Positions 7,392-44,556 of a stretch of 64,000 nucleotides of DNA are shown here, piece after piece. The notes beneath the pieces are model-generated. The model saw only the letters and a list, made by a program, of their open reading frames with translations. It did no database searches and was not told where the DNA came from. The stretch comes from Streptomyces sp. NBC_01335 (GTDB lineage Bacteria > Actinomycetota > Actinomycetes > Streptomycetales > Streptomycetaceae), in NCBI RefSeq assembly GCF_035953295.1, contig NZ_CP108370.1, forward strand, positions 1,488,001-1,552,000, in the 5' to 3' direction. Numbering within the stretch: the stretch's first letter is position 1; each line of letters starts with the position of its first letter. A program made the translations under genes and the position numbers.

Positions 7392-8431
7392 CGGACTTCG
7401 TCCTCCTGGGAGTTGACCGACTGGGCCGGCGCGCCGGTCTGGTCGGACGGGGCGGTCTGGTGGGGGACGCGGGTGCCGCCGGTGAGGGCGAAGAACACGT
7501 CGTCGAGGTCGGGGGTGTGGACGGTGAGTTCGTCGGCTTCGACGTGGGCGGTGTCGAGGCGGTCGAGGATGGTGCGGAGTTCGCGCTGGCTGCCGTCGCT
7601 GAGGATCTGGAGGGCGAGGGCGTCGTCGTCGCGGGAGGCGTCGGGCAGGGCGGTGGCGGCTTCGCGGTAGGTGGTGGGGTCGGTGAAGCGGAGGCGGACG
7701 TGTCCGCCGGGGACGAGGCGCTTGAGTTCCTCGGCGGTGCCTTCGGCGGCGATCTTTCCGTCGTGGAGGACGGCGATGCGGTCGGCGAGTTCGTCGGCTT
7801 CGTCGAGGTACTGGGTGGTGAGGAAGACGGTGACGCCGCCGGTGACGAGTTCGCGGATGATGCCCCACATGGTGTGGCGGGAGCGGGGGTCGAGGCCGGT
7901 GGTGGGTTCGTCGAGGAAGATGATCCTCGGGTCGCCGACCAGGGTCATGGCGATGTCGAGGCGGCGTTTCATGCCGCCGGAGTAGGTGGAGGCGGGCTTC
8001 TGCGCCGCTTCGGTGAGGTCGAACCGCTCCAGCAGTTCGGCGGCGACGCGCTTGCCCTCCGCCTTGGGCAGGTGGTGGAGGTCGGCCATGAGGAGCATGT
8101 TCTCCTCGCCGGTGATCAGTCCGTCGACCGCGGAGAACTGTCCGGTGACCCCGATCGCGGCGCGTACCGCCTGCGGGGCGGTGGCCACGTCGTGGCCACC
8201 GACGCTCAGCTCGCCGGCCCCGGCGGTGATGAGGGTGGAGAGGATCTTGACGACGGTGGTCTTGCCGGCACCGTTCGGGCCGAGCAGGGAGAAGATCGTG
8301 CCTGCCGGGACGGCCAGGTCGACGCCGTCGAGGACGGTCTTGTCGCCGTAGGACTTGCGCAGACCCTTCGCCGCGATGGCCAGGCCGGCGGCGGGGAGGG
8401 CGGGGCTTGCGGGGTTCGCGGAGAGTGCCAT
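7388..8431 (-). CDS. ABC exporter ATP-binding protein (DrrA-like)
   Basis: This 347-residue ATPase has Walker A GPNGAGKTT, a Q-loop region (GVTGQFSAVDGLITG), ABC signature STYSGGMKRRLDIA, Walker B RIIFLDEPTTGLDP and an H-loop position occupied by Gln (LTTQYLDEAD), as is normal for the DrrA subfamily. A C-terminal regulatory domain with DDVFFALTG is also typical of daunorubicin-resistance ATPases. The ending overlaps the start of the permease. The DUF4097 gene lies 12 bases upstream on the same strand, so the order DUF4097-ATPase-permease is one operon, probably controlled by the divergent MarR/GbsR regulator. Confidence 0.93.
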   Translation of the reverse strand: MALSANPASPALPAAGLAIAAKGLRKSYGDKTVLDGVDLAVPAGTIFSLLGPNGAGKTTVVKILSTLITAGAGELSVGGHDVATAPQAVRAAIGVTGQFSAVDGLITGEENMLLMADLHHLPKAEGKRVAAELLERFDLTEAAQKPASTYSGGMKRRLDIAMTLVGDPRIIFLDEPTTGLDPRSRHTMWGIIRELVTGGVTVFLTTQYLDEADELADRIAVLHDGKIAAEGTAEELKRLVPGGHVRLRFTDPTTYREAATALPDASRDDDALALQILSDGSQRELRTILDRLDTAHVEADELTVHTPDLDDVFFALTGGTRVPHQTAPSDQTGAPAQSVNSQEDEVR

Positions 8432-8443
8432 GGGGGTGCTCCT

Positions 8444-9115
8444 TTACAGGCTGCGGGCGGTGATGTCGCCGTAGGCGGTGGTCGCGTGGAGGTTGAGGGC
8501 GGCGGCAGCGCCGTCGGTGTTGGAGAGCGCGTTGTGGACCCGGCCGTAGGTGGTGCCGGCGTCCAGGGATGCCGAGACCCCGCGGGCGGCGCCGACGGTG
8601 ATCTCCCCGTGCGCGGTGCGCAGGGTGACGGTGCCGCGGACGGCCTCGGTGATGTGCAGGTCGCCCTTCTGGGTGCTGATCTCGGCGGGTCCGCCCAGGC
8701 GGCCGACGGTGATGTCCCCGGCGAGGACGGTGAGTTGGGCGCTCGCGGTCTCGTCGAGCTTGACGGTCGCCTGCTGGCCGTCGAAGACGACGTCACCGAG
8801 CCGTCCGACGCCCCGGAGTTCGGCGCTGGCCGCCTTCACCTCGATACGGGAGCCGGCGGGCAGCTGGACGGTCAGCTCGACCGCTCCGGAGGGGCCGAGG
8901 ATCCGGTTGCCCGCCTCGGAGGCCTCGATCCGCAGGACTCCGTCGGCGTGGGTGACCTCGATCCGCTCGGCCGCCTTGACGTCGCGGCTCTTGGAGGCGT
9001 CCGCGGGCAGGACCTCGACCACGGTGTCGGGCCGGTCGGCGGCGATGAACCGGATGTGTCCGGCGGGGATGTCGACGACGGCCGAGATGGGGGCGGGGGT
9101 GGTGAACTTCTGCAT
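8444..9115 (-). CDS. DUF4097 beta-strand repeat protein
   Basis: The start ATG at 9115 (MQKFTTP) is preceded by CCAGGAG, giving 223 residues and dropping a 24-residue upstream extension. The body is a run of short beta strands with repeated ITVG/LHIT/VTLR patterns (residues about 20-215), the right-handed beta-solenoid look of DUF4097 adhesin-like domains. No signal peptide is seen, so it is probably cytoplasmic. In Streptomyces, DUF4097 genes often sit in front of DrrAB-like exporters and opposite a MarR/GbsR gene, exactly as here. Its molecular job is unknown. Confidence 0.82.
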   Translation of the reverse strand: MQKFTTPAPISAVVDIPAGHIRFIAADRPDTVVEVLPADASKSRDVKAAERIEVTHADGVLRIEASEAGNRILGPSGAVELTVQLPAGSRIEVKAASAELRGVGRLGDVVFDGQQATVKLDETASAQLTVLAGDITVGRLGGPAEISTQKGDLHITEAVRGTVTLRTAHGEITVGAARGVSASLDAGTTYGRVHNALSNTDGAAAALNLHATTAYGDITARSL

Positions 9116-9418
9116 CGTTTTCTCCTGGGTCTGCTGGGCGAGCCCCTGCGGCCCGCCGTTTCCGACATGAGAAACGCTACGTTGCATTCACGGATCCGGC
9201 AACGACGTAATCCCCGAAATTCCGGTCTCCGCAGGTGGATTGAGGGATTTCATTGCAATGGATTTGGATCGAACGCAACGACCACATCCATCGTCGTTGC
9301 AATGGCTTGAGTGCGAACGCTAAGGTCGCACCAGGAGGGCTCCGCACGGACCGGGGTCCCTCGCACGCACCACCAGAGGGCTCCAGGGCCCCTCGCACGC
9401 ACCACGAGGGAGAACGCG
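9116..9418. promoter_or_regulatory. Divergent promoter region with TTGCA-type operators
   Basis: This region separates the exporter operon from its likely regulator. It contains GTTGCATTC near 9181, a perfect palindrome CATTGCAATG (9251-9260), and an 8-bp inverted repeat GCAACGAC (9275-9282) / GTCGTTGC (9293-9300) running into TTGCAATGG. The repeated TTGCAAT-like element is a good candidate operator for the MarR/GbsR protein. A 16-base direct repeat CCCTCGCACGCACCAC occurs at 9358-9373 and 9390-9405 in the leader of the regulator gene. Confidence 0.55.
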
Positions 9419-10177
9419 ATGCCGGGAGGCAGACTCACCCAGCAGGAACGCCAGCAGATCGCGCTCGGACTGGCCGACGACCTGGCCTACGCGGAGATCG
9501 CGCGGCGCCTCGACCGCCCCACCTCGACCGTCACCCGCGAGGTCATGCGCAACGGTGGCCCCACCGGCTACCGCGCCGACCTCGCCCAGCGCGCCACCGG
9601 GCGTCGCGCGCAGCGCCCGCGGCAGGCGGAAGCCCGGGAGCCGGAGGCGCCTGAGCCCCCGGGGCACGGGCGGGACGCGGAGGCGGTGCGCGCGTACGAG
9701 GAGACGTTCACGGACGTCCTCGTCCAGTCGGGGCTGTCCAGGATGATGGCCGGGGTCCTGGTCTGCCTCTTCACCACCGACGCGGGCAGCGTCACCGCGG
9801 CCGAACTCGTGCGGCGCCTCCAGGTCAGCCCGGCGACCATCTCCAAGTCGATCGCGTTCCTGGAGAGCCAGGGGCTCGTCCGCCGGGAGCGCGACGAGGG
9901 GCGCCGCGAGCGGTACGTCGCCGACGACGACGTCTGGTACCAGTCGGTGATGGCGAGCGCCCGCTCCACCGCCCAACTCGCCGAGGTGGCACGGGTGGGC
10001 GTCGGCGTACTGGGCACCGGCACTCCGGCCGCCCACCGTCTGGAGAACATCGCCCGCTTCACCGGCTTCGTCTCGGAGAGCATCACCCGCGCCGCCGAAC
10101 AGGCCCGCGACATCCTCGCCACCAAACCTGCGGGGGCGGCGTCCGGCACTGCGTCCGGCACTGATACGGAGAGCTGA
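9419..10177 (+). CDS. GbsR/MarR regulator with N-terminal IS30-type HTH
   Basis: The ATG at 9419 follows GAGGGAG and gives 252 residues. Two DNA-binding parts are visible. Residues 5-45 (LTQQERQQIALGLADDLAYA, then EIARRLDRPTSTVTREV) look like the HTH_38 domain found at the N-terminus of IS30 transposases. Residues 95-175 form a GbsR/MarR winged helix (VTAAELVRRLQVSPATISKS, then LVRRERDEGRRERYV). A low-complexity linker of Arg, Pro and Glu joins them. It is divergent from the DUF4097-exporter operon and most likely represses it and itself through the sites in 9116-9418. A strong terminator follows at 10184. Confidence 0.88.
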   Translation: MPGGRLTQQERQQIALGLADDLAYAEIARRLDRPTSTVTREVMRNGGPTGYRADLAQRATGRRAQRPRQAEAREPEAPEPPGHGRDAEAVRAYEETFTDVLVQSGLSRMMAGVLVCLFTTDAGSVTAAELVRRLQVSPATISKSIAFLESQGLVRRERDEGRRERYVADDDVWYQSVMASARSTAQLAEVARVGVGVLGTGTPAAHRLENIARFTGFVSESITRAAEQARDILATKPAGAASGTASGTDTES

Positions 10178-14348: not shown

Positions 14349-14957
14349 GTCGAGCACCCGCGCGAGGTAGGCGTGGAGCAGCACCCGGACCTCGGCGACG
14401 ATCGCCGGATCGCCGGACGGGTCTTCGCGGAAGGCGAGTTGGAGCGTGGCGTCGGCCGCCTCCACGCCGACCAGGACGGCGCGGCGCAGGTCCTCGTCCG
14501 GGCTGCCGCCCAGGTGTCCCGCGAGGAGTTCGGCGAGCCGGTCCGCGAGCCGGTGGTTCGCCCGGTGCTGGGGGTCGTCGGCGTGTGCGGCGGCCCCGAA
14601 GTCGACCTGGGCGAAGCCGGGGAGCGTACGCCGCATCGCCAGGTACTCGTCGAGTACGGCGTCGATCGCGCCCCGCCAGTCGGCGGCGGGGACGGCGGCG
14701 AGCCGGGTGGTCAGGTGCTCGGTGTAGGAGTTGAGGTTGCGCACCGCGAGGGCGTCCACCAGGGCGCGCTTGTTGGGGAAGAAGCGGTAGACGGACCCGA
14801 TGGGCACCTCCGCGCGGAGGGCGACGGCCCGGGTGGAGAGCTCCTCGTAGCCGGCTTCGTCGAGGAGTGCGGCACAGGCGTCGAGTATCCGGGTGAGCCG
14901 TTCGGCACTGCGCTGCTGGACGGGGGCGCGGCGCAGCTTCGGTTTCGGGTGGGACAC
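14346..14957 (-). CDS. TetR/AcrR family regulator
   Basis: The GTG at 14957 (SHPKPKLRRAP) gives 203 residues. The N-terminal domain is a textbook TetR helix-turn-helix: RLTRILDACAALLDEAGYEE, then STRAVALRAEVPIGSVYRFF and PNKRALVDAL. The rest is an alpha-helical ligand domain ending in LLHAYLARVLD, of the C-terminal type seen in many actinobacterial TetR proteins. It is transcribed in the same direction as the molybdopterin oxidoreductase, with 147 bases between them containing a TetR-like dyad at 14236 and the 21-bp repeats. It therefore probably controls that gene. The inducer is unknown. Confidence 0.88.
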   Translation of the reverse strand: MSHPKPKLRRAPVQQRSAERLTRILDACAALLDEAGYEELSTRAVALRAEVPIGSVYRFFPNKRALVDALAVRNLNSYTEHLTTRLAAVPAADWRGAIDAVLDEYLAMRRTLPGFAQVDFGAAAHADDPQHRANHRLADRLAELLAGHLGGSPDEDLRRAVLVGVEAADATLQLAFREDPSGDPAIVAEVRVLLHAYLARVLD

Positions 14958-15158
14958 GGCCCCATCATGCCGGAGACCACCCGGCCCCCACCCGTCTCCA
15001 CCTGCCTCCACCAGGCCCCGCCCGGCTTCCGGACGCGCGGCGATTGGCGTTGACGGGCCCCTTCTCCATTCCTACGGTGGTCCATAGGATTCACCTTCCA
15101 CGGTTCCCGCGCGCTCCCGAGGGCCGCGGGGGCCCGTCTCGGCACCGGGAGCAGTGGT

Positions 15159-16586
15159 ATGGGCGGCATGGACGGCACACGCGGTACGGACGGCACACGC
15201 GACACGCGGAACGCCGACGGCACACGCGGCACAGGGAACACGGGCACGGGCGGCGCGGACACCGCGGCCGGCCCGGACACCGCCGGGACCGTGTCCGGCG
15301 GGCGCCTGGCGTACTCCACCGGTTTCGGCAACGAGCACAGCTCGGAGGCGGTGCCGGGCGCGCTGCCGCACGGGCGCAACTCCCCCCAGCGCGCGCCGCT
15401 CGGGCTGTACGCGGAGCAGCTCAGCGGCTCCGCGTTCACCGAGCCCCGCGCCCGTAACCGCCGCTCCTGGCTGTACCGGATCCGGCCCTCCGCCGCGCAT
15501 CCGGCGTTCGTCCGCGCCGGCAACGGCTCGCTCCGTTCCGCACCGTTCACGGAGACCGTGCCCGATCCCAACCGGCTCCGCTGGGACCCGCTGCCCGCCC
15601 CCTCCCCCGGCACCGACTTCGTCGCCGGGCTGTGGACCCTCGGCGGCAATGGCGACGCGGCCGGCCGCACCGGCATGGCGGTGCACCTGTACCACGCCAA
15701 CTCCTCCATGACGGAACGCGTGTTCAGCGATTCGGACGGTGAGTTGCTGATCGTCCCCGAGCAGGGTGCGCTGCTGCTCCGCACCGAGTTGGGCCTGCTG
15801 CGCGCCGCTCCCGGCGAGGTGGCGCTGATCCCGCGCGGGGTGCGCTTCCGGGTCGAGCTGCTCGACGCGACCGCCCGGGGGTACGTCTGCGAGAACTACG
15901 GAAGCCCTTTCGAGCTTCCTGAGTTGGGCCCGATCGGTGCCAACGGACTGGCCAACGCACGGGACTTCCGCGCCCCGGTCGCCGCGTACGAGGACCGCGA
16001 GGGCCCGTTCGAGGTGATCAACAAGTTCTGCGGCAACCTCTGGACGGCGACGTACGACCACTCCCCGCTGGACGTCGTCGCCTGGCACGGCAGCCACACG
16101 CCGTACGTCTACGACCTGCGCCGTTTCAACGTCATCGGCACCATCAGCTACGACCACCCCGACCCGTCGGTCTTCACCGTGCTGACCTCGCCGACCGACA
16201 CCCCGGGGCTGGCCGACGTCGACTTCGTGGTCTTCGCGCCGCGCTGGCTGGTCGGCGAGGACACCTTCCGGCCGCCCTACTTCCACCGGAACGTGATGAG
16301 CGAGTACATGGGGCTGATCGAGGGGGCGTACGACGCGAAGTCCGGAGGCTTCGTCCCGGGCGGCGGCTCGCTGCACAACATGATGTCGGCGCACGGTCCG
16401 GACCGGGAGACCTTCGACCGGGCGAGCGCGGCGGAGCTCGTACCGCAGCGGATCGACGACGGGCTGGCGTTCATGTTCGAGACGCGCCGCCCGCTGACGC
16501 TCACCGGTCACGCCGCCTCCGCCCCCCATCTCCAGCGCGGTTACGACGGGGTGTGGCAGGGTCTGGACAGCAACTTCCGGCCATAG
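15159..16586 (+). CDS. hmgA: Homogentisate 1,2-dioxygenase
   Basis: This protein of 475 residues opens the aromatic ring of homogentisate to maleylacetoacetate in tyrosine/phenylalanine breakdown. From residue 45 on it matches the family throughout: [19 protein letters not shown], the cupin-like middle [10 protein letters not shown] and [12 protein letters not shown], and the iron-site region [18 protein letters not shown] with [15 protein letters not shown]. Residues 1-43 are a low-complexity Gly/Thr/Asp/Arg stretch encoded by near-repeats of GACGGCACACGCG and are not part of the known fold. A start at 15168 is also possible; GGGAGC at 15147 fits 15159. The GntR/UTRA gene follows by 44 bases and may regulate it. 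Confidence 0.95.
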
Positions 16587-33795: not shown

Positions 33796-36700
33796 TCACA
33801 CCTGGATCGGTTCCAGCTCCCGTTCGAACCTCCTGCCGTCCCGTGCGATCCGCGTCATCGGATGGTCGTCACCGAGCTGGCGGGCCAGCTCCCCCACGAT
33901 CCGCGCCCGCAGCTGCTGGGCCTCCTCGTGCCGGCCGAGGTCCTCCAGCGTGACCGCCGTGTTCCCCATCATGGCCAGCGCCTCCGGATGCTGCGCCCCG
34001 AGAGCCTTGCCGAGCTGTCCTGCGAGGAGCTGCTCCGTCTCCAGTACCAGCACCGCGTCCCCGAGCACCGCGGTCGCGCTGGCCAGGTTCATCACGCAGA
34101 AGAGCGTGTGCGGGTGGTCCCGGCCGAACAGCTCCCGCATCAGGTCGACGACCCGCCGCGACGTCCTGGCCGCCTCCTCGGCCTCCCCCGAGCCGAGCAG
34201 GTAGACGGCCAGGTTGTTCTGCGCGGCCAGGGTGTACGGGTGCCGCTCCCCCGGCACCACCAGGTACTGCTCGACCACCTCTCGCGCCGCGTCCCTCGCC
34301 TGCGACGTCTCACCGATCGCGTAGTAGTCGGCAGCCAGGTTGAGGTCGCAGGCCAGCGACTCCGGGTTGGGCGTGCTGTACTTCGCCCGGTACCTGGCCC
34401 GGGTGGCCAGCGTCAGCCTGCGGGCGTCCTCCAGCTGCCCCGCCCTGCGCAGCGCCACCGCGAGCGCCTTGGCGGCGGAGAGCGTGCCCGGGAAGGCGGG
34501 GCCGAGCGTCCTCTTGTAGCTGTCGTACGTACGGCTGAGCAGCGCCACGGAGTCCTCGTACCGGCCCACGTCGCGCAGGTCGCGGGCGAGGCTCACAGCG
34601 GAGGAGAGGCTGTACGGATGCTCCGCGCCGAGCACCTCGCTGCGCCGGTCGTACACCTCCTGGTCGATCTCCCGGGCCCGGGAGTACTGCCCGACCAGCC
34701 GCAGGTTGAGCGCCAGGTTGTTCGCCGCCGCGAGGGTCCTCGGGTGGCCCTCGTGGAAGATCTGCCCGAACCCCTCACGGGCCTCGTTGGCCAGCTCGAT
34801 CGCCCGGCCGTACTCCCCGAGCATGCCGAGGTCGGTCGCCAGACTGCTCGTCGTCATGTAGGTGTGGGGGTGCTCCGCGCCCAGGATGTCGCGCTGCCGC
34901 TGGAGGGTGATCTCGTCGAGCTCCTTCGCCTCCACGTAACGCCCGCGCGAGCGGAAGATGTTGGAGATGTGGAAGCAGAGGTACAGGTACTGGATGTCCT
35001 CCTTGCCCAGCGTCTCCGCCCAGGCGGCGCGGAGTTCGGCGCCCAGCGCGCCCGCCGTGCGGACGTCGCCGCGCTTCCAGAGGTAGCGGACGCGGTCGAT
35101 CAGCAGCCTGCGGGTCTCCGGCTCCCCGCAGTGGCGCGCCCCGGACGGGCCCAGGTGCGGCCAGATGGTGGCGAACCGCGCCCAGTTCTCCGGGTTGTCG
35201 ATCGGCTCGTCGTCGTCCGGCCGGGCCCCGGCCAGGACGCGGTGGACCACGTGCCGGGCCTCCCGCTGCTCCTCCTCGCTGAGCTGCGCCTTGATGACGG
35301 CCTGCACCAGCCGGTGCACCTGGATCGAGTTGGAGACCTGGTCGACCTTGGCGAGCGCGAACCGGCCGATCTCCCGGATGACCCGGCCGAGGACGAGCTT
35401 CTCCTGGAGGGAGGAGTCGTACGGCTTGAGTGCCTCGATCATCTCCTTGCTGTAGAGGAGGCTCGCGCTGATCGGCTCGGGGGCGAAGAAGGCGCAGAGC
35501 TGGAGCAGCCGCACCGCGGCGGGCGACCGTTCCTTGAGCCGCTCGATGGAGACGTTCCAGGTGGCGGCCACGGGTTCCGGGTAGCCGGCCGGCTGGTTGA
35601 GGGACAGCACCTGGGCGGCCTGCTCGGCGAGCTGGTCGAGGTAGGTGTCGACGGGGGTCGCGGTCTCCGCGATCCAGGCGGCGGCCTGCTCGACGGCGAG
35701 CGGCAGGTCACCGACGGCCGTGGCGACCCGCCCGGCGTCCTCCTCGCTGAGTCCGGGTGCGCGGCGGCGGAGGTGTTCGACGGACTCCTCGCGCAGGAAG
35801 ACGTCGACGGGCAGCGCGTCGCCGTGCTGCGACCAGGTCTGGTTCCGCGACGTCACCAGGATGTGGCCGGAGCCGCCCTGCGGGAAGTAGCGCCTGATCC
35901 GTTCGGGGTCGTCCGCGTTGTCGAAGACCAGCAGCCACCGGTCGGTGGGCACCCCGCGGCGCAGCAGGTCGACGGCTTCCTTGGAGGCCGCCGCCATGTC
36001 GTCACCGCCCTGCGTGCCCAGCCGGGCGGCGAGTTCCGCGAGTCCGGCGACCACGTCGTCGGTCTGCTCGGAGGAGATCCACCACACCAGGTCGTAGTCG
36101 GCCATGAAGCGGTGCACGTACTCCAGCGCCACCTGCGTCTTGCCGACGCCGCCGAGGCCGTACAGGGTCTGCGGCTGGGGCAGCACCACCGCCATGCCGC
36201 CGCCGAGCTGGTCGCGCATGCGTTCCAGTACCAGGGAGCGGCCGGTGAATCCGGGGTTGCGCGGCGGGGCGTTCCAGATCTTCGGGACCGTGCCGGGGAA
36301 CCTGGGTCCCGGCGCCGACCCGTCGCCCAGGTGGGCCGGGCGGTCCAGCGCGCGCAGCAGGGCGGCCGCGGCGTGGGCCTCGTCGAGCCGGAAGAGGTCC
36401 ACCGGGTTGCGGTCGATGTAGGCGGAGGTGAGCCGGACGTCTCCGACGCGGAACAGGATCTGGCGCCGGCCGCCGGTCTGGTCCTCGGTGCTGGAGCGCT
36501 GCCACAGTTCGGTGGCGCGCTGGGACTTGAGGTAGGCGCTGGAGAGCAGCACGACGGTGCGGGCGGCGGTCTCCGGCGCGGTGACGGGCGGTTCGCGGTC
36601 CTCGCGTTCGGTGGAGACGTCGCGCGGTACGACACGGAAGCCGGCCCGGGTGAGGACGGACTCGATCCAGTCCGCCCACATCCGGTTCTCCGCGACGTAG

Positions 36701-37728
36701 TTGAGGAAGATGTCGGCGGGGAGCGTGGGCCGGCGCCGGGTGAAGGCGTCGCGGATGCGCAGCCGGACGTCCTCCGCGACCGGCGGCATGGAGGTGACCT
36801 CCTGCTCGGTGACGACCGCCACGAGCCGTTCGAAGGCGGAGAGCAGCGAGTTGGTGAGCCCGGCTTCGTCGCCGAAGGTCGCGAGCGTCTCCTCGTACGC
36901 GTAGTAGGGGCGGTACGGGATCTCCACCGCACCCCAGTAGGCGGTGAGTTCGTCGCCGGACAGGTCGCGCGGCAGCCGGTCGAACTTGAAGCGGGCGAGG
37001 GCCCGTCCGGCGTCGGCCTTCTCCTTCTCGCCCTCGTCGATGCGCATCGGGACGGGGTAGATCGCGATCGGCCGCCCGCTGTAGCGCTCGGCCGTCTGGC
37101 GGGCCACGGAGGCGGCGCCGTCGATGGACTGGTCGCTGAGGGTGAAGCAGTCCACCAGCACGTCGGGGAGGTGGACGGTGCAGATGTCGGCGATGTCGCT
37201 GAGGCCGGTGCGGCTGTCGATGAGGACGTAGTCGTAGTTGGCCTTCATGTCGTCGCGCAGGGCGTCGAAGAAGCTTCCGCCGCCGAGCCGGTCGTAGAAG
37301 TTGTCCCAGTCGAACGTGGAGACGGCGGCGGAGTACTCGCGGTTCTGGCGGCCGGCCGAGACGAAGTCGAGGGTTCCTCCCCGGGGGAACTCCCAGCCGA
37401 GCGTCTCCGGTGTCAGGGAGACGGCGTGCTGCTGGATGCGCGCGTAGTCGCGGTGCCAGTCGTCGGGGCGCTGCGCGGGGCTGGTGGCGGCCCAGGCGTA
37501 TTCGGTGATGAGGTCGATGACACCGGTGGTGGCGCCGAGGGTGGCGGGGTCGAGGAAGGGGTGGAAGAACCGGTGCAGGCCCGGCGCCTCCAGGTCCCAG
37601 TCGACGGCCAGGACCCGCTTGCCGTTGGCGGCCAGGATCCAGGCGGTGTTGGCCAGGGCCATGGTGCGCCCCGTGCCTCCCTTGTAGGAGTAGAAAGTGA
37701 CGATCCGCCCGTCACGACCGGCTGTCAT
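33796..37728 (-). CDS. fxsT: FxSxx-COOH system NTPase with TIR, NB-ARC and TPR (FxsT)
   Basis: This 1310-residue protein overlaps the fxsC stop by four bases. Domains in order: a ParA/MinD-like P-loop ATPase (residues 8 to about 300, deviant Walker A YSYKGGTGRT, then VDWDLEAPG); a TIR domain (about 338-460, DIFLNYVAENRMWADWIESV, TVVLLSSAYLKSQ with a possible catalytic Glu near 407); an NB-ARC/STAND NTPase (about 485-800, Walker A LYGLGGVGKTQ, Walker B WLLVFDNADD, and LPLAVEQAAAWIA); and a long TPR array (about 880-1290, LGAEHPHT- and LGAEHPYS-type repeats). STAND proteins are switchable sensors; TIR domains can consume NAD. Its place in the fxs operon is known, its biochemical role is not. 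Confidence 0.92.
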   Translation of the reverse strand: MTAGRDGRIVTFYSYKGGTGRTMALANTAWILAANGKRVLAVDWDLEAPGLHRFFHPFLDPATLGATTGVIDLITEYAWAATSPAQRPDDWHRDYARIQQHAVSLTPETLGWEFPRGGTLDFVSAGRQNREYSAAVSTFDWDNFYDRLGGGSFFDALRDDMKANYDYVLIDSRTGLSDIADICTVHLPDVLVDCFTLSDQSIDGAASVARQTAERYSGRPIAIYPVPMRIDEGEKEKADAGRALARFKFDRLPRDLSGDELTAYWGAVEIPYRPYYAYEETLATFGDEAGLTNSLLSAFERLVAVVTEQEVTSMPPVAEDVRLRIRDAFTRRRPTLPADIFLNYVAENRMWADWIESVLTRAGFRVVPRDVSTEREDREPPVTAPETAARTVVLLSSAYLKSQRATELWQRSSTEDQTGGRRQILFRVGDVRLTSAYIDRNPVDLFRLDEAHAAAALLRALDRPAHLGDGSAPGPRFPGTVPKIWNAPPRNPGFTGRSLVLERMRDQLGGGMAVVLPQPQTLYGLGGVGKTQVALEYVHRFMADYDLVWWISSEQTDDVVAGLAELAARLGTQGGDDMAAASKEAVDLLRRGVPTDRWLLVFDNADDPERIRRYFPQGGSGHILVTSRNQTWSQHGDALPVDVFLREESVEHLRRRAPGLSEEDAGRVATAVGDLPLAVEQAAAWIAETATPVDTYLDQLAEQAAQVLSLNQPAGYPEPVAATWNVSIERLKERSPAAVRLLQLCAFFAPEPISASLLYSKEMIEALKPYDSSLQEKLVLGRVIREIGRFALAKVDQVSNSIQVHRLVQAVIKAQLSEEEQREARHVVHRVLAGARPDDDEPIDNPENWARFATIWPHLGPSGARHCGEPETRRLLIDRVRYLWKRGDVRTAGALGAELRAAWAETLGKEDIQYLYLCFHISNIFRSRGRYVEAKELDEITLQRQRDILGAEHPHTYMTTSSLATDLGMLGEYGRAIELANEAREGFGQIFHEGHPRTLAAANNLALNLRLVGQYSRAREIDQEVYDRRSEVLGAEHPYSLSSAVSLARDLRDVGRYEDSVALLSRTYDSYKRTLGPAFPGTLSAAKALAVALRRAGQLEDARRLTLATRARYRAKYSTPNPESLACDLNLAADYYAIGETSQARDAAREVVEQYLVVPGERHPYTLAAQNNLAVYLLGSGEAEEAARTSRRVVDLMRELFGRDHPHTLFCVMNLASATAVLGDAVLVLETEQLLAGQLGKALGAQHPEALAMMGNTAVTLEDLGRHEEAQQLRARIVGELARQLGDDHPMTRIARDGRRFERELEPIQV

Positions 37729-39050
37729 ACGTCCTCCGCTTGCGTCCCAGGGTCGAGCGTGTCGGGTATGAACTGTGTGTGGCCCATGGGCCCCGTCAGC
37801 CGGGTGCGTTCACCGTGCCCGCCGCCGCTGCCGGGCGGGTAGACGGTCGCGTTGCGCAGGTACTGCTGCGCGGCGACTTCGACGACCTGCGGCAGGATCT
37901 GGCCGAACGCCTCCATGGTGGGTACTCCTTTGGCCGCGACGCGGCAGAAGGCGCGCCCCTGGCTCATCTTGACGGGCATGGTCTGTTCGAGGATCGCGGT
38001 GAGTTCCGCTTCCTCGGCGGTGCTCTGCGGGTCGTCGCGGTTCCACGGCACGACCAGGGTCACCCAGGGCCTGTTGTCGGCGTCGAACGCGGCGAGCCTG
38101 CGGCGGCGGTCCTCGTCCCGGAGCGCCCATCGGTCGAGTATGAGGATCTCCGGCGTGGTGGGGGCCCGCTTCTCCGCGGACAGTCCCTGGCCCTCGGACT
38201 GCCCCTGGTCCTCGTCGAACGAGCCGATCACGGCCTGGTAGTTGAGCGAGCGGACGAGTTCCTCGGTGACGTAGGCCAGCGGGCGCGCGGCGGCCGGGTG
38301 GTAGGGGTTCCAGTCCTGCGGGTTGTCGCCGTAGTAGGCCTCGTTCCGCCCGGGCGGGAGATCGTGGCGGGTGGGTGCGGCGATGGTGATGCGCATCGGC
38401 TTCGGCGCCCCCGCACCGCTGCTGCGGGACCCGAAGGCACTGGGGGCGAGGCGGTAGTCGACGGGTCTTCCGGTGTCGATCCGCACGGTGTCGGCGACGG
38501 TGACGATGCGCTTGGCCAGCTCGTACACGGCTCTTTCGTACTCCTGGGCGAAGAGCCGGAGCTTGATCAGGCCGTAGAGCCCGTCGCTGACGTAGCGTTC
38601 CCCGAAGTCCCGGTGGTTGAACTGGATGCGCTCGGCGGAGCCCGGTAACTGACTGGGCGGCACCGGCACCCAGAGCGCCGGGACGATCGCCTCGGCGGGC
38701 TGGTTGGAGCGGGCGCGATGATGGATCGCCCGCTGTTCGAAGGCGTACCACTCCTTGCCGCACATCTCGCTGGCGAAGTAGCGCGGCGAGAACAGCGGAA
38801 CGAAGACCCGGCAGGTGGCGAGCACCGCGCCGAGCCGTTCCGACCAGCCCTCGCCGGATCGTATTTCCCGGTCCATGAACCCCGCGGTGGTGCCCGCGGG
38901 GAGATCGGTCATGGCCATCACATGGCCGCAGAGATCTTGGAAAAGGCGTTCGACCCACATGTCCGGGTCCGTTCCACCGCCGTACCCCGGTGTGTGCGCG
39001 TAACTGAGAAAGAAGTACGGCCGATGGTCCGACGCTCGCTGTTGCATCAT
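37725..39050 (-). CDS. fxsC: TIR-like protein of the FxSxx-COOH system (FxsC)
   Basis: From the ATG at 39050 (39047 is equally possible) this is about 441 residues. The N-terminal half is TIR-like: PYFFLSYAHTPG, FMDREIRSGEGWSERLGAVL, VFVPLFSPRYFASEMCGKEW, where the Glu of CGKEW (about residue 100) sits where catalytic TIR enzymes have theirs. The C-terminal half (about 215-400) is a second alpha/beta domain (MRITIAAPTRHDLPPGRN, EILILDRWALRDEDRRRRLA, WVTLVVPWNRDDPQS) seen in FxsC proteins. The stop overlaps the fxsT start, so the two proteins are coupled. Whether the TIR part cleaves NAD or only scaffolds is unknown. Confidence 0.9.
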   Translation of the reverse strand: MMQQRASDHRPYFFLSYAHTPGYGGGTDPDMWVERLFQDLCGHVMAMTDLPAGTTAGFMDREIRSGEGWSERLGAVLATCRVFVPLFSPRYFASEMCGKEWYAFEQRAIHHRARSNQPAEAIVPALWVPVPPSQLPGSAERIQFNHRDFGERYVSDGLYGLIKLRLFAQEYERAVYELAKRIVTVADTVRIDTGRPVDYRLAPSAFGSRSSGAGAPKPMRITIAAPTRHDLPPGRNEAYYGDNPQDWNPYHPAAARPLAYVTEELVRSLNYQAVIGSFDEDQGQSEGQGLSAEKRAPTTPEILILDRWALRDEDRRRRLAAFDADNRPWVTLVVPWNRDDPQSTAEEAELTAILEQTMPVKMSQGRAFCRVAAKGVPTMEAFGQILPQVVEVAAQQYLRNATVYPPGSGGGHGERTRLTGPMGHTQFIPDTLDPGTQAEDV

Positions 39051-39203
39051 GCGTGCACACGACCCCCGTCCTGTGTGAGCACCCACATCCGATGCTACGG
39101 AGTGAATGCGAGCGAATTCATCATTCCGGAGCGGGCCGCTCTCCACCCCTTCGATCTTCGGTCATTCACCGCCCCTTTTCAGTCATCTCCCCAGCAGCAT
39201 CGA

Positions 39204-41474
39204 TCACTTACCTTCTTGATCGAAGATTGTCCCGGAGTCGCCGTTCCTGCTGACCCCCTGCGCACCGCTGAGCTCTTTTCGGATCACGTCCAACAGACGC
39301 TTCCCGTGGACGGTCGCCTCGGGAGCCTCTTCCAGCAGGTCGAGCGCTTCCTGCACACCCGCGGGGAATTCCGGATCGAAGAGCCCGACGCCCACCCGCT
39401 CATGGGTCTCGGCCAGCAGACGGGAGAACGGAAGGGCGGTCCCGTCCCAGGGCGACAGATACTCCCAGTCCCCGTCCGCCGCGTACAGGTCCGTGACGTC
39501 GCGCAGGGCCCGCAGCTCGCTCCTGCGGTGGGCCCGCACCATCTCGACCGCCGTTCCTGGGCCGTCGGCGTCCACCGGGACCCCGAGCGCTCCATGGCCG
39601 CGAGGCCGCTCGGCCCGGCAGCCCCGGGTCAGCGGGGTGACGGTGGTCACCGCCTCCGCCATGGCCGTGGCCATCGCCGGAGCCACCGCCTCGATCCGGG
39701 CCCAGGCGCCGGCGAGCGCCTCCCCGAAGGCCTCGAAGACCTCGGGCTCCAGACGGTCCGCGGCGGGCGCCGCGTGGCAGTCGCGGTAGGGGTCGAGATC
39801 GTCGACGGCCCAGCCGGGCAGCCCGGCCACCGCGAGCCGGCGGACCGGCCGCCAGCCGCCGCCCGGCTCCCCGAACGCGACGCGCAGTTCCTCGCCGCTC
39901 CCGCGCTCCACCACGAAGCCCTCGGGCACGCCCCGGACGAGGACCGTCCCGTGGTCGCCCGCACCGCCGAGCGTCAGCTCGCCGAGGGTGGGCAGGAACA
40001 GCCCGCCTCCCCGGTGGACCACCGGCACGGGGTCCGTCAGGCCGGCCCGCAGGGCCGCCGCGGCCACGTACGAGGTGAGCCGCGAGGCCTCCGCGACGGC
40101 CCGGTCCGGGTCGGAGTGGAGCCCCTCCACGGTCTCCTGGAGCCAGGAACGCGCGTACGGATGGGCGAGCACGCGGTCGAGGCCGGCGGCCCCCGCCTCC
40201 GACTCCTCCAGGACGCCCGCCGTCTCCCACGCCCGCGCCCACGGCTCACCCCCGAGCCCGTCGAGCAGCGCGTGGAGGCCGGCCAGCAGCGTGCGGGTGA
40301 GCTCGTGGTGCTCGGCGGCCGTCCCGGCCGGGCCGGACAGGGCGGGCGAGACGAGGGCCGACCCCGTACGCTCCTCGATCCCGCGCACCAGCGCTTCGAG
40401 GTCCGCGCAGTACACGGACGGGTTGTCGAACTCGTTGGAGGAGCGGTAGCGGTGGGTGTAGAGCCCGCCGCCGCACGAACGTACGACGGGGCAACTGCGG
40501 CAGTCCTCGCTGACGCCCGCCAGACCGAGCTGGCGGGCCTGGACTCCCGGATGGGCTGCCACCTGGTCGAAGGAGTGGGTGAAGACGTCGAAGCCCGTGG
40601 CGGCTGCGCCCTCGTACGCGCTCTTGAGCGAATCGACCTGTTCCAGCTGCCCGTCCGTCTCCACGACGACGAGGTCGGTGGGGGCAAGCCCGAGCGATTC
40701 GGTGAGGCTCGGCCCGCCGCTCAGGGTGGACAGCACCGAGGAGAACAGCCGGACCGGCACCGGACGCCCCTGCTCCTGCCAGCGATCGAAGATCGCGAGC
40801 AGCCAGTCGGCATAGGCGACGGGCGACCCGTCGGGACGCGGGGGCGGTTCGTCCCAGGTGGCGTGCGGAAGGAGGAAGTCGATGAGCGGTGGATCGAGTT
40901 CGGTCAGGGCGTCGAGCACGGCGTGCGGGTCGTTGGCGATGTCGATCGTGCAGAGGAGGCCGAGGTTCAGGTGGCGGTAGCGTTCCTGCCGGAGCAGTTC
41001 CACGGCCTTGAGCACGAGGGGGTGACTGCTGCGGCCGTCCGCGAAGCGGCGGTGTCGGTCGTTGGCCGCCCGGTCGCCGTCGAGGGAGATGCCCACCTTG
41101 ACGTCGAACTCGGCGAAGAGGTCCAGGTACCGCGGACTGAGCTGAAGGCCGTTGGTGTGGATGCGGAGATCCAGTTCGGCGACTCCCGCGAGCGCGGAGC
41201 CGAACTCCTCGCAGATGCGGCGCAGCCGCGCGGGGCCCGCGAGTAGCGGCTCCCCTCCGTGCAGGATCACTGACACGGAGGGCAGTGCATGTGTCCCGGC
41301 GTGCTCGGCCAATCGCTGAGCCGTCCGCTGAATCACCTGGTCAGAGATTGTTTTCGGGCGGGTTCGCCAACTCTGGTCAGCATGTTCATAGACATAGCAA
41401 TGATCACAGGCGAGATCACATCTGCTGTGAACCTTCAGAACGATTTCACGGAAAGGGACCGGGGGTCCTGTCAT
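39204..41474 (-). CDS. fxsB: Radical SAM/SPASM peptide maturase FxsB
   Basis: This protein has 756 residues. The radical SAM cluster motif CDLACDHC (Cys 19, 23, 26) leads a TIM-barrel core (ILHGGEPLLAG, RIHTNGLQLSPRYLDLF, VGISLDGDRAANDRHRR). A SPASM domain follows (CRSCPVVRSCGGG, YCADLE). FxsB-family enzymes belong to the reported three-residue cyclophane (triceptide) formers that link an aromatic ring to a nearby beta-carbon in the precursor. Residues about 400-756 are an extra domain resembling the HExxH-type peptide beta-hydroxylases (HPYARSWL, VDDLDPYRDCHAAPAADRLE), but the HExxH position reads RAHRR (near 647-651), so this half looks degenerate. It lies 84 bases after fxsA. Confidence 0.92.
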   Translation of the reverse strand: MTGPPVPFREIVLKVHSRCDLACDHCYVYEHADQSWRTRPKTISDQVIQRTAQRLAEHAGTHALPSVSVILHGGEPLLAGPARLRRICEEFGSALAGVAELDLRIHTNGLQLSPRYLDLFAEFDVKVGISLDGDRAANDRHRRFADGRSSHPLVLKAVELLRQERYRHLNLGLLCTIDIANDPHAVLDALTELDPPLIDFLLPHATWDEPPPRPDGSPVAYADWLLAIFDRWQEQGRPVPVRLFSSVLSTLSGGPSLTESLGLAPTDLVVVETDGQLEQVDSLKSAYEGAAATGFDVFTHSFDQVAAHPGVQARQLGLAGVSEDCRSCPVVRSCGGGLYTHRYRSSNEFDNPSVYCADLEALVRGIEERTGSALVSPALSGPAGTAAEHHELTRTLLAGLHALLDGLGGEPWARAWETAGVLEESEAGAAGLDRVLAHPYARSWLQETVEGLHSDPDRAVAEASRLTSYVAAAALRAGLTDPVPVVHRGGGLFLPTLGELTLGGAGDHGTVLVRGVPEGFVVERGSGEELRVAFGEPGGGWRPVRRLAVAGLPGWAVDDLDPYRDCHAAPAADRLEPEVFEAFGEALAGAWARIEAVAPAMATAMAEAVTTVTPLTRGCRAERPRGHGALGVPVDADGPGTAVEMVRAHRRSELRALRDVTDLYAADGDWEYLSPWDGTALPFSRLLAETHERVGVGLFDPEFPAGVQEALDLLEEAPEATVHGKRLLDVIRKELSGAQGVSRNGDSGTIFDQEGK

Positions 41475-41558
41475 TCCGTCAGTCTAGCCATCGGCACCAG
41501 GTGCGTCGGCCATGCGTGAGCGGCGCAATGCCGCTGCACGCCCCCGGGTGAACTCGGA

Positions 41559-41801
41559 TCAGAGCGCGGAGTTGAACGTCGACGTCCTGTTCGAGCGGCC
41601 GCCCGGAACCGAGACGATCCGTCCGAGCTTTTCGGCGACGTCGCCCCCGGCGGTCTCGATCTTGGAAAGCGGCACACGGCTGATCTTCGCGGTGGCGAAG
41701 GAGGAGGGGAATGCGTAGGTCTTCACGGCCGTCCTTGATTGGCTCGTTCCGGACATGGAAACAGCACCGGCCAGCTGCACCATTGCAGTGTCCGGCGTCA
41801 C
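41559..41801 (-). CDS. fxsA: FxSxx-COOH peptide precursor (FxsA)
   Basis: A peptide of up to 80 residues ending FNSAL, which is exactly the FxSxx-COOH signature (Phe-x-Ser-x-x at the C-terminus). It is encoded immediately upstream of the radical SAM maturase. The leader contains KTYAFPSS, PLSKIETAGGDVAEKLGRIV and a Gly/Arg/Ser linker before the core. The start is unsure: GTG 41801, ATG 41783 and ATG 41756 (MSGTSQSR, 65 residues) are all in frame. GAGAG upstream of 41801 slightly favours the longest form. The core Phe-Asn-Ser is the expected cyclophane site. What the mature peptide does is unknown. Confidence 0.85.
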   Translation of the reverse strand: MTPDTAMVQLAGAVSMSGTSQSRTAVKTYAFPSSFATAKISRVPLSKIETAGGDVAEKLGRIVSVPGGRSNRTSTFNSAL

Positions 41802-41937
41802 GACTTTACTCTCAGAATCTCGGCGAGCACATCTTCACAGACATGTGTACCCCCATTCGGGCAAGGAAGTTGCCCGTAATGGCGGATCGGGCCATTCCAC
41901 CAACAGGGCTCCCCCTGTTTCGATCACCGGAGCGGAC
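41802..41937. promoter_or_regulatory. Divergent promoter region of fxsA and the SLATT gene
   Basis: These 136 bases separate the fxs operon from the divergent SLATT gene and are AT-richer than the surroundings. They contain a small inverted repeat GGGCA...TGCCC (41858-41875 region) and GACATGTG. No confident -10/-35 pair is seen. A shared control region would tie the two sides together. Confidence 0.4.
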
Positions 41938-42867
41938 ATGAAAGCGATTCCTGAACCCCTGCGGTCCATGGTCTTCAGGGATGCCGACCTGCCCGAACTC
42001 TTCCACCGCACCGACGCCGTCGCCGTCGCCCGGCAGCGGGAGGCCATCCGTACGACCCGCTTCCAGTTGACGTTCCTCGTCCTCGGGGCGATACCCGCCG
42101 CGCTGCCGTGGAGCGTGGAAGTCGGGGACTCCCTCCAACTCCTCGACTTACTCGGGGCGTTGGCCTACGCGGGCGTTCTGGTCGCAACCCTCTTCGGCTC
42201 GCACCGCAAAGCGAAGTCGCACTGGCAACTCAACCGCTCCGCAGCGGAGTTCATCAAGTCGAACTGCTGGCGCTACGCGGTGCACGGCTCCCCCTACGAC
42301 ACCACCACGCAGCACCCGGAGGCGGTGTTCGCCAACAGGCTGGAGGAAGGGCTCCAGGAACTGCGGAAAGCCGGCTGGGACGACCCCCGCGACGGCCTGG
42401 ACGGGCCGGACGCGGGCCTCGTCACCGAGCCCATGCGGGTGTTGCGGGACAAGGCGTTCACCGTGCGCAAGGAGACCTACGTACGCGACCGCCTGATAGA
42501 GCAGCGCCGCTGGTACCGGAGGCGGCAGTCGGCCTCCCGGCGGAGTGCGCTGGCCTGGTCGAGCACGGTCGCGGCACTGACGGCGCCGGCGCTGGTCCTC
42601 TGCCTCGTGCAGACCTTCGGGACGGGCCGGTCCTTCGGCCTGACCGGGGTGCTGTCGGCCGCCGCCGCGGCGTGCCTGGCCTGGAACGAGATGCGCCGCC
42701 ACCACCCGTTGGTCTCGGCACACTCCGTGGTCGAGAAGGACCTGGAGTCGATGCAGGCGGCGATGGAGACCTCGCTCACCGAACGGCAGTGGCCCGCGGC
42801 GGTCTTCGAGACCGAGCGCATCGTCTCCCCCGAGCACACGGACTGGCTGGCCAGGCACCGCATATGA
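41938..42867 (+). CDS. SLATT (DUF4231) membrane protein
   Basis: The ATG at 41938 (MKAIPEPLRSMVFRDADLPE) follows CGGAG; the product has 309 residues. Two pairs of hydrophobic helices are seen: FQLTFLVLGAIPAALPW and LLGALAYAGVLVATLFG (about residues 42-87), and ALAWSSTVAALTAPALVLCL and LTGVLSAAAAACLAW (about 222-262). Between and after them lie charged helices (HRKAKSHWQLNRSAAEFIKS, ETYVRDRLIEQRRWYRRRQ), and the last part is HSVVEKDLESMQAAMETSLTE. This is the DUF4231/SLATT arrangement. SLATT proteins were proposed, from comparative genomics of nucleotide-signalling conflict systems, as membrane-perturbing effectors associated with SLOG and similar sensors. It is divergent from fxsA and convergent with a SLOG gene. 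Confidence 0.82.
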   Translation: MKAIPEPLRSMVFRDADLPELFHRTDAVAVARQREAIRTTRFQLTFLVLGAIPAALPWSVEVGDSLQLLDLLGALAYAGVLVATLFGSHRKAKSHWQLNRSAAEFIKSNCWRYAVHGSPYDTTTQHPEAVFANRLEEGLQELRKAGWDDPRDGLDGPDAGLVTEPMRVLRDKAFTVRKETYVRDRLIEQRRWYRRRQSASRRSALAWSSTVAALTAPALVLCLVQTFGTGRSFGLTGVLSAAAAACLAWNEMRRHHPLVSAHSVVEKDLESMQAAMETSLTERQWPAAVFETERIVSPEHTDWLARHRI

Positions 42868-42895
42868 CGTATCGTCAATTTGCTTGCGTACGAGC

Positions 42896-43375
42896 TCAGT
42901 CGCGGCGCACACCGTCGCGCCAGATCACGGTGACCGGGCGGCCCAGGGCGCGTGCGTAGGTCACGATGTCGCCGGTGCCGCCCAGGCCCCGGGCCGGGAG
43001 GCCGTCCCAGACGGCCACGAGCCGGTCGCAGTGGTCGGCGATCCAGGTGCCCGCCGCGTAGTACGCCTCGTCCGTGGAGTGCCGGAAGTCGAGCCGCACC
43101 TCCCGCCCGGCGAGGGACTTGAGGGTGAGGTAGTCCTTCAGTTCGGCCTCTTCGTCGAAGCACTCCTCGTAGTCGTCACTGGGGATCACCGCCGTCAGCC
43201 GCGCGCCGCGCGCGAGGGCCAGACGGGCGAAGAGCTGGTCCGCCCCCACGGCCAGGCTGGAGAGCGCCTCCAGCGGGTCCCCGGTCTCGTACAGCGCCGT
43301 GCGCAGACCCGCGCGCACGTGGGCGTAGGCCTCCGGGGGAATGGAACGGTGTCCGGTCACTCCGATGCGATGCAC
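42896..43375 (-). CDS. SLOG-fold (TRPM-SLOG-like) nucleotide-sensor protein
   Basis: This is a 159-residue single-domain protein starting with GTG at 43375. It begins IGVTGHRSIPPEAY, then SLAVGADQLFARLALARGAR, a middle acidic stretch ECFDEEAELKDYL and a C-terminal CDRLVAVWDGLPARGLGGTG DIV pattern (split here for length). The Rossmann-like GVTGHR, GADQLFA and WDG...GGTGD motifs are those of the SLOG superfamily, which binds nucleotides or NAD-derived ligands; ThsA of Thoeris carries one as its sensor. No catalytic domain is attached. The stop lies 28 bases from the SLATT stop, so the two genes are tail to tail. It likely senses a small signal; this is inference. Confidence 0.78.
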   Translation of the reverse strand: MHRIGVTGHRSIPPEAYAHVRAGLRTALYETGDPLEALSSLAVGADQLFARLALARGARLTAVIPSDDYEECFDEEAELKDYLTLKSLAGREVRLDFRHSTDEAYYAAGTWIADHCDRLVAVWDGLPARGLGGTGDIVTYARALGRPVTVIWRDGVRRD

Positions 43376-43656: not shown

Positions 43657-44556
43657 TCAGAAGACGCTGACTCCGTACGCGCTCAGTGCTTCGGTGACGG
43701 GCTGGAAGAAGGTCGTGCCGCCCGAGGTGCAGTCGCCGCTGCCGCCCGAGGTGAGGCCGATCGCCAGGGTCCCGGAGTAGAGCGGGCCGCCGGAGTCGCC
43801 GGGCTCGGCGCACACGTTGGTGCGGATCAGGCCGGAGACGATCTCCCCGTTGCCGTAGTTGACGGTGGCGTTGAGGCCGGTCACCGTACCGCTGTGGATG
43901 CCGGTGGTGGAGCCGCGGCGGGTCACGGACTGGCCGACGGTGGCGTTGGCCGCGCCGGTGATGTCCACGCTGCCCACGGTGCCGCTCTTGGTGACACTGC
44001 TGTTGGTGTACGTCACCAGGCCGTAGTCGTTGCCCGGGAAGCTGGATCCCGAGGTGGTGCCGAGCGTGGTGGTGTGGGCCGAGTTGGACCACCAGGTGCC
44101 CGCGCCGTCGGTGCAGTGACCGGCGGTCAGGAAGTAGTAGGTGCTGCCGCTGCGGACGTTGAAGCCGAGCGAGCAGCGCCAGCTGCTCGCGTAGATCGCG
44201 TCGCCGCCCGAGATCAGCTTGTTGAAGGTGCCGGCCGTGCGCTCGATGCGCAGGGCGCCCGCCTCGTCGCCCGCGGTCTCCTTGATCTTCGCGATCTCGG
44301 CCTGCGTGACGGTGCTGTCCACGGTGACGACGAGGTGCTTGGTGGCGGGGTCGACGCTCCAGGCGGTGCCCGGGACGTCGGCGGTGAGCACGGCGTCGCT
44401 CGCGGCGGTGAGCTGGGCGGTGCTGAACGTTCCGGCCGACTCGGCGTTGGCCGCAGGGACGGCGAGCGCCGCTACGGCGACCAGACCCGCCGCGATGGCG
44501 ACGGCCCTGCTGCGTCTGGCGGTGGTGCTGCGGGGGGTGGTGCGCTTGATCCTCAC
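43657..44556 (-). CDS. Secreted serine protease, streptogrisin type (S1E)
   Basis: GTG 44556 ([10 protein letters not shown]) is chosen because GGAGG lies eight bases upstream; the product has 299 residues. It is a pre-pro-protease: signal peptide ([21 protein letters not shown]), an alpha-lytic-type propeptide with [20 protein letters not shown], and a mature chymotrypsin fold starting near [10 protein letters not shown]. The catalytic triad is visible as His in FLTAGHC, Asp in GNDYGLVTY and Ser in [12 protein letters not shown]. Cys pairs WRCSLGF/GHC and CAEPG/GDC are the expected disulfides. It resembles streptogrisins A/B. It is exported, self-processed, and feeds on protein. Two terminators follow it. 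No link to the adjacent fxs/SLOG genes is evident. Confidence 0.93.

Follow-up and report, generated by a model that had tools for sequence, protein, structure and literature searches.

The window analysed here is a stretch of 64,000 nucleotides from Streptomyces sp. NBC_01335 (positions 1,488,001-1,552,000 on contig 1 of a genome of 8.36 Mb). It carries the genes of a FxSxx-COOH peptide system next to a gene encoding a SLATT membrane protein and a gene encoding a SLOG protein (Table 1). All six genes named in a preliminary description of this DNA, fxsA, fxsB, fxsC, fxsT, SLATT and SLOG, are present, SLOG being recognised through the predicted fold of its product.

Table 1. Features of the fxs and SLATT/SLOG genes, with positions counted from the first nucleotide of the window.
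Feature	Position	Strand	Description
fxsT	33796..37728	-	KGGTGR-type MinD/ParA-like domain, degenerate TIR, NB-ARC with intact GLGGVGKT P-loop, DUF7779, TPRs
fxsC	37725..39050	-	TIR-like domain, in which the glutamate of SPRYFASEMCGKEW is conserved, and FxsC C-terminal domain
fxsBH	39204..41474	-	radical SAM/SPASM maturase with CxxxCxxC and the 'inactivated' HExxH extension; belongs to the FxsB family, which forms cyclophanes
fxsA precursor	41559..41756	-	65 aa; C-terminus TSTFNSAL-COOH
SLATT promoter-like element TTGCAG-N18-TACTCT	41783..41812	+	kept upstream of SLATT
SLATT protein	41938..42867	+	tandem SLATT_3 and SLATT_1; hydrophobic helices
YpsA/DprA-like SLOG protein	42896..43375	-	convergent with SLATT

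While the ATGA overlap between fxsC and fxsT and the 28 bases separating the ends of SLATT and SLOG agree with what had been described, the interval between fxsA and SLATT measures 181 bases rather than 136, the start of fxsA being placed at 41756 by its homologues and that of SLATT at 41938. The fxs genes had also been described as an apparent operon. However, the open reading frame of fxsC opens at 39146 and homologues favour a start at 39050, 153 bases after fxsB, so that the operon is not tight at this junction.

The maturase of the window reaches 593.4 bits with the FxsB family model (cut-off 370) and 389.6 bits with the model named 'FxsBH, inactivated beta-hydroxylase extension form' (cut-off 225). 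Its CxxxCxxC motif reads CDLACDHC, and no HExxH motif was seen on reading its sequence by eye. Among the seven flanking proteins of the window that were scanned, none is a zincin-like metallopeptidase. FxsC is recognised by both its N-terminal (238.8 bits, cut-off 130) and C-terminal (225.5 bits, cut-off 55) domain models, and FxsT by its own model with 1039.9 bits (cut-off 300). FxsA, scored as a peptide with nine extra N-terminal residues, falls just under the cut-off of its model (27.5 bits for a cut-off of 28). Its tail is FNSAL-COOH, and a tail of the form F-[NS]-S-[AS]-L is found in 75 of 77 loci, that is the window and 76 of the 80 named loci described below, the other four being left out of this count. 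At loci lying at other chromosomal sites the tails are looser (FDSAL or FTSSI, for example). Searched by pattern, 4 of 20 SLATT-bearing loci yielded no peptide ORF, and loci with and without SLATT could not be clearly told apart by their peptide tails. The product of FxsA probably contains a Phe-Ser three-residue cyclophane. It would thereby resemble the triceptides, three-residue cyclophanes formed by radical SAM enzymes, among which MscB is reported, in the excerpted text of that work, to join Phe C4 to Ser C-beta (PMC11002830). It differs from the triceptides of that excerpt in being linked to immune-type regulators.

FxsT combines a KGGTGR variant of the MinD/ParA P-loop with an NB-ARC P-loop, GLGGVGKT, that is intact in the window. 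A PADLOC search returned part matches only, the best being between the N-terminus of FxsT and the candidate system PDC-M28B (1.1e-22). A glutamate at the TIR catalytic position marks NAD cleavage. In an alignment read by eye, this glutamate (GKEW/GREW) is kept in 26 of 26 FxsC sequences, and at the corresponding position of FxsT it is not conserved. We rejected a TIR activity of FxsT because of this lack of conservation, and the earlier proposal that the TIR parts of both proteins could act as a signal source should be narrowed to FxsC.

The SLATT protein of the window holds two SLATT domains, matched at 120.7 bits (SLATT_3) and 112.5 bits (SLATT_1), the cut-off being 26.3 for each. Its structure model (mean pLDDT 82) is all but helical. 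A simple hydropathy scan delimits three hydrophobic stretches, and two SLATT domains would give four helices. A fold search of the PDB with this model returned no solved relative at or below 1e-3. The SLOG protein, a stand-alone protein of 159 aa, has no Pfam match at E 0.01 and is linked by Pfam to DprA, deoxyribosyltransferase and YAcAr through weak matches only. Its initial identification is nonetheless borne out by its predicted fold. Indeed, its structure model (mean pLDDT 94.4) matched YpsA (5.8e-9), DprA (5.7e-7) and ShosA (3.6e-6) in a Foldseek comparison with the PDB and, more weakly, LOG (5.2e-4) and the SLOG domain of BcThsA (5.1e-3). The motifs GxTGHR, LAxGADQxFA and AVWDGxPxRGxGGT are invariant at their lettered positions in the 19 aligned SLOG rows, window included. 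As modelled, this fold would point to nucleotides.

The preliminary description had called for a survey of fxsB neighbourhoods, which we carried out in 150 genomes of the same genus, Streptomyces. SLATT homologues above 200 bits are found in 42 of them, one in each. An FxsB row lies within 15 kb of this gene in 41 of the 42 cases, the exception being genome G057, and a close SLOG homologue lies within 5 kb in 41 of the 42, genome G079 having its SLOG at 10.7 kb. Taken from the other side, all 42 SLOG matches above 150 bits, the only ones entered in the linkage count, lie within 15 kb of a SLATT match above 200 bits. None of the six weaker SLATT rows, found in five genomes, is within 15 kb of an FxsB row; 48 of the 49 listed SLATT rows were counted in all. 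FxsB is represented by 141 rows, namely the listed rows over the cut-off and one contig-edge fragment, weaker listed fragments being left out. A SLATT gene lies within 15 kb of 39 of the 55 FxsBH rows (above 540 bits) and is missing there from the other 16, a few of which are near contig ends. It accompanies 2 of the 86 shorter or partial FxsB rows, one of the two being a contig-edge fragment; these shorter rows include a fragment from G028 that is 86% identical to the FxsBH of the window. These counts are not independent, most of the loci being related by descent. The linkage goes beyond chance. The pattern that would have spoken against the preliminary description, with SLATT and SLOG rare in the vicinity of fxs genes or conserved apart from them at unrelated loci, was not observed in these genomes (41 of 42 close SLATT homologues near FxsB, 42 of 42 close SLOG homologues near such a SLATT).

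In 296 genomes sampled across the class (114 genera), strong SLATT matches were restricted to nine genomes of the same genus, each of which has an FxsB row no more than 15 kb away. SLATT matches between 1e-34 and 1e-42 also occur in five other genera, where the genomes concerned lack an FxsB match at 1e-60, and neither fxs nor SLOG was found near these matches in the five loci fetched. FxsBH-type rows also exist outside the genus (for example in G292, G337 and G239), in genomes that have no such SLATT match. Finally, we described 80 named loci, which, ranked on similarity of their SLATT, are the best 80 of 173 relatives and do not form an even sample; 79 are from Streptomyces and one is from '[Kitasatospora] papulosa'. 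Among these best 80 of 173, SLOG is present in 80, fxsB in 79, fxsC in 72 and fxsT in 71, fragments being counted (for example in L083 and L126). Ten of the named loci are incomplete, five of them on short or cut contigs (L088, L105, L137, L143 and L147). In L083, on a contig of Streptomyces griseus BIG105, an ORF that by eye looks like UvrB (~8078-9589) overlaps the fxsB fragment, possibly through an assembly join.

Loci L032-L044 have the flanking genes of the window and represent one ancestral site; the copy of the window sits in a conserved chromosomal region. At twelve other loci (L045-L050, L152, L153 and L165-L168), only the unit itself matches the genes called between 20 and 60 kb of the window, the flank compared at these loci being a few kb. 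SLATT is beside fxs in all twelve and SLOG is beside SLATT in eleven, L049 (from G079) being the one with SLOG 10.7 kb off. L152 has flanking DNA in common with the group of L046, and L050 and L153 resemble the others in their core only. From these sequences, it is likely that the unit occupies at least three further chromosomal sites.

The arrangement of the unit also varies. In L041-L044, at the site of the window, the fxs block is turned round with respect to SLATT/SLOG, and SLATT begins with a GTG codon 63-79 bases after fxsT on the same strand (an ATG start in L043 would give 49). L145 has this inverted arrangement as well, and G039, G042, G046 and G078 would have it too, judging from coordinates. 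The fxsT-SLATT gap of L041, L042, L043 and L044 contains a GC-rich inverted repeat lacking a T run, a possible attenuator, and fxsT and SLATT might be co-transcribed in this configuration.

Three of the loci at other sites, L050, L152 and L153, possess a different fxs type. Their FxsB is of a lower-scoring type (448-463 bits), their FxsT is at most 45% identical to that of any other row, and in L152 the genes follow the order fxsC-fxsT-fxsB-AAC3-SLATT. In a quick tree of 37 FxsT rows, in which these three have long branches, a starred branch joins them with SLATT-less rows as opposed to the main SLATT-bearing clade. The SLATT label changes four times on this tree, and none of 500 shuffles gave a number as low. 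The SLATT and SLOG proteins of the three loci fall in one clade with those of L045-L049 (support 100/100, L153 being placed by SLOG only). SLATT and SLOG of a single clade thus stand beside a divergent fxs type, which indicates that a second type of fxs genes has been joined to the pair. Pure synteny as the sole cause of the linkage was rejected, because the unit is found at other sites and beside this divergent fxs type.

Parts of the unit have been lost repeatedly. At the syntenic site, L051 (from G057) keeps SLATT/SLOG without fxs; L058 keeps only fxsBH and L066 only fxsT. L119 and L132, two of the 80 named loci, have fxsA, a full-length fxsBH, SLATT and SLOG and lack both fxsC and fxsT, and L126 and L133 have SLATT/SLOG with no intact fxsB and no detected fxsA. 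SLATT/SLOG is therefore neither universal with fxs nor inseparable from it, and the pair outlives fxs in a few genomes.

Additional genes are found in and around the unit. The fxs unit can include a gene for an AAC(3)-fold acyltransferase, in most cases flanked by fxsB and fxsC, at L037:7305-8081, in L038-L050 and in the SLATT-less loci L052, L055-L057, L059, L060, L068 and L071. It scores 225 bits with PF02522 and stays below the cut-off of the NCBIfam AAC(3) model (132 bits for 270). It is present in 22 of the 40 loci L032-L071 and in 19 of the 80 named loci (best 80 of 173); no AAC(3)-like gene was matched in the window, where fxsB and fxsC are separated by 153 bases. A membrane-type protein of about 258-290 aa is encoded between fxsA and SLATT in 20 of the 80 named loci (for example L032, L033, L034 and L069); that of L069 has no Pfam match, and a relative occurs in L058. 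An alpha-lytic-protease-type gene flanks the locus (43657-44556 in the window), and several relatives have similar copies of it on either side of the fxs/SLATT/SLOG genes (L032:1652-2425 and 14886-15659). No transporter gene was found inside the unit.

The element upstream of SLATT, which resembles a sigma-70 promoter, was found in the form TTGC-N18-24-TACTCTC once in 69 of the 80 named loci, always on the SLATT strand and 92-167 bases ahead of the aligned start of SLATT. When this strict pattern is applied, L041-L044 and L045-L050 lack it. We rejected the idea that fxsA and SLATT use one common promoter: the element stays near SLATT across the intervening membrane protein gene in L032, L033 and L069, and also in L036, where the gap to fxsA is longer. 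In its commonest arrangement, SLATT thus has a promoter-like element of its own and not one in common with fxsA, which counts against coupling.

SLOG-SLATT modules were reportedly predicted in nucleotide conflict systems by Burroughs in 2015. The present locus likewise combines neighbouring genes for a SLATT membrane protein, a SLOG protein and a protein with a TIR domain, but its trigger side is a RiPP peptide system and its SLATT domains are two in tandem. Thoeris follows a TIR and SLOG logic, in which ThsA is a SLOG domain fused to an effector in one protein. The locus has TIR plus SLOG in common with it; in contrast, its SLOG is a separate, small, unfused YpsA-like protein, for which the SLOG domain of BcThsA is a weak fold match (5.1e-3). 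Standalone FxSxx systems with an AP-ATPase and a MinD-like domain have been described (PMC7159879). These have in common with the window the type of peptide, the radical SAM/SPASM enzyme and an AP-ATPase/TPR protein with a MinD/ParA-like domain. The window differs from them by its attached SLATT/SLOG pair, by the inactivated HExxH extension of its FxsB and by the lack of a metallopeptidase among the genes scanned, a zincin-like metallopeptidase gene being part of the peptide-processing system as that paper defines it. In the excerpted text of that paper, SLATT is mentioned only with GAP1 systems. Excerpts of a second study report that TIR genes adjoin SLATT in phages and that YpsA-clade SLOG domains sense cADPr (PMC9503650). 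While the fxs core is already in print, no paper joining FxSxx with SLATT/SLOG was found among the matches listed in the open-access literature, and an earlier mention is possible.

Altogether, these observations make it very probable that the fxs and SLATT/SLOG modules are functionally coupled. The composite proposed in the preliminary description stands as a recurrent, recombining gene unit; the flow of a signal through it is what we infer. As the best explanation of the whole, to which we give almost even credence, the locus would be a conserved two-module Streptomyces system involved in conflict or stress and so far seen only in this genus. One module, fxsA-fxsBH-[AAC(3)-like]-fxsC-fxsT, brings together a FxSxx peptide, a regulator of the STAND class (NB-ARC/TPR) and an enzyme resembling TIR proteins, and the other the two-SLATT-domain membrane protein and the YpsA-like SLOG protein. 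The modified peptide, free or as a ligand guarded by FxsT, may switch the NB-ARC protein. FxsC, with its conserved TIR glutamate, could then make or cleave a NAD-derived nucleotide that SLOG would bind or process, and SLATT would respond at the membrane by permeabilising it, in a dormancy or cell-death circuit. That SLOG reads a nucleotide signal from FxsC is possible but rather doubtful. Against this link stand L119 and L132, which lack fxsC and fxsT, and L051, L126 and L133, where SLATT/SLOG exist without intact fxs. The full RiPP-gated chain, in which an NB-ARC/TPR protein reading the cyclophane peptide would control the TIR enzyme, whose NAD-derived product would reach the YpsA-like SLOG and open SLATT, is unlikely in that complete form.

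It is very unlikely that SLATT/SLOG is an independent pair that merely adjoins fxs in an inherited chromosomal region. This idea would account for the single syntenic site of window-like loci, for the promoter-like element of SLATT, for the survival of the pair after loss of fxs in a few genomes and for the 16 of 55 FxsBH rows devoid of SLATT. However, the linkage recurs without the flanks of the window, with the order inverted and next to a divergent fxs type, module exchange already weakening such an idea, and only 1 of 42 close SLATT relatives in the 150 genomes is away from FxsB. Alternatively, SLATT, regulated by SLOG, might export the modified peptide or confer immunity to it, with TIR and NB-ARC acting separately. 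The unit is without a transporter gene, L119 and L132 retain fxsA-fxsB together with SLATT/SLOG in the absence of fxsC and fxsT, and SLATT is modelled as an all-helical protein that has hydrophobic segments. Yet an F-x-[ST]-type peptide ORF precedes fxsB in 9 of the 13 SLATT-less fxsB loci examined, so that loci lacking SLATT also make the peptide; the fold of SLOG suggests nucleotides, and SLATT/SLOG persist in L126 and L133 where fxsA was not detected. We regard export or immunity as improbable.

The same components could also tune the state of the membrane to an internal peptide signal, in development or stress rather than in defence. The conserved chromosomal position in the main clade would fit such a role, as would the finding that, across the class sample, a single genus has all the strong SLATT matches. 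Carriage of SLATT by plasmids or phages was moreover rejected for want of any match; with its conserved chromosomal setting, the window in this respect differs from a typical mobile defence island. On the other hand, NB-ARC, TIR, SLOG and SLATT are parts of published conflict systems (PMC7159879 and PMC9503650, in their excerpted texts), and repeated partial loss fits conflict genes better than housekeeping genes. Developmental or stress signalling in this form thus appears improbable too. Within the two-module system that we favour, a role in phage defence, as opposed to stress or developmental signalling, is conceivable, with the balance leaning somewhat against it.

To our knowledge, no target or output has been established for the FxSxx peptide. 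The SLATT/SLOG partner pair provides a concrete candidate output (SLATT) and a concrete candidate sensor (SLOG), and since this pair is recurrent, the role of the peptide becomes testable in common laboratory strains of Streptomyces. Module exchange suggests that SLATT/SLOG can attach to a RiPP system and can stay when the type of fxs genes changes. If the RiPP-gated circuit were true, it would be a bacterial circuit with a modified self-peptide as its trigger or guard.
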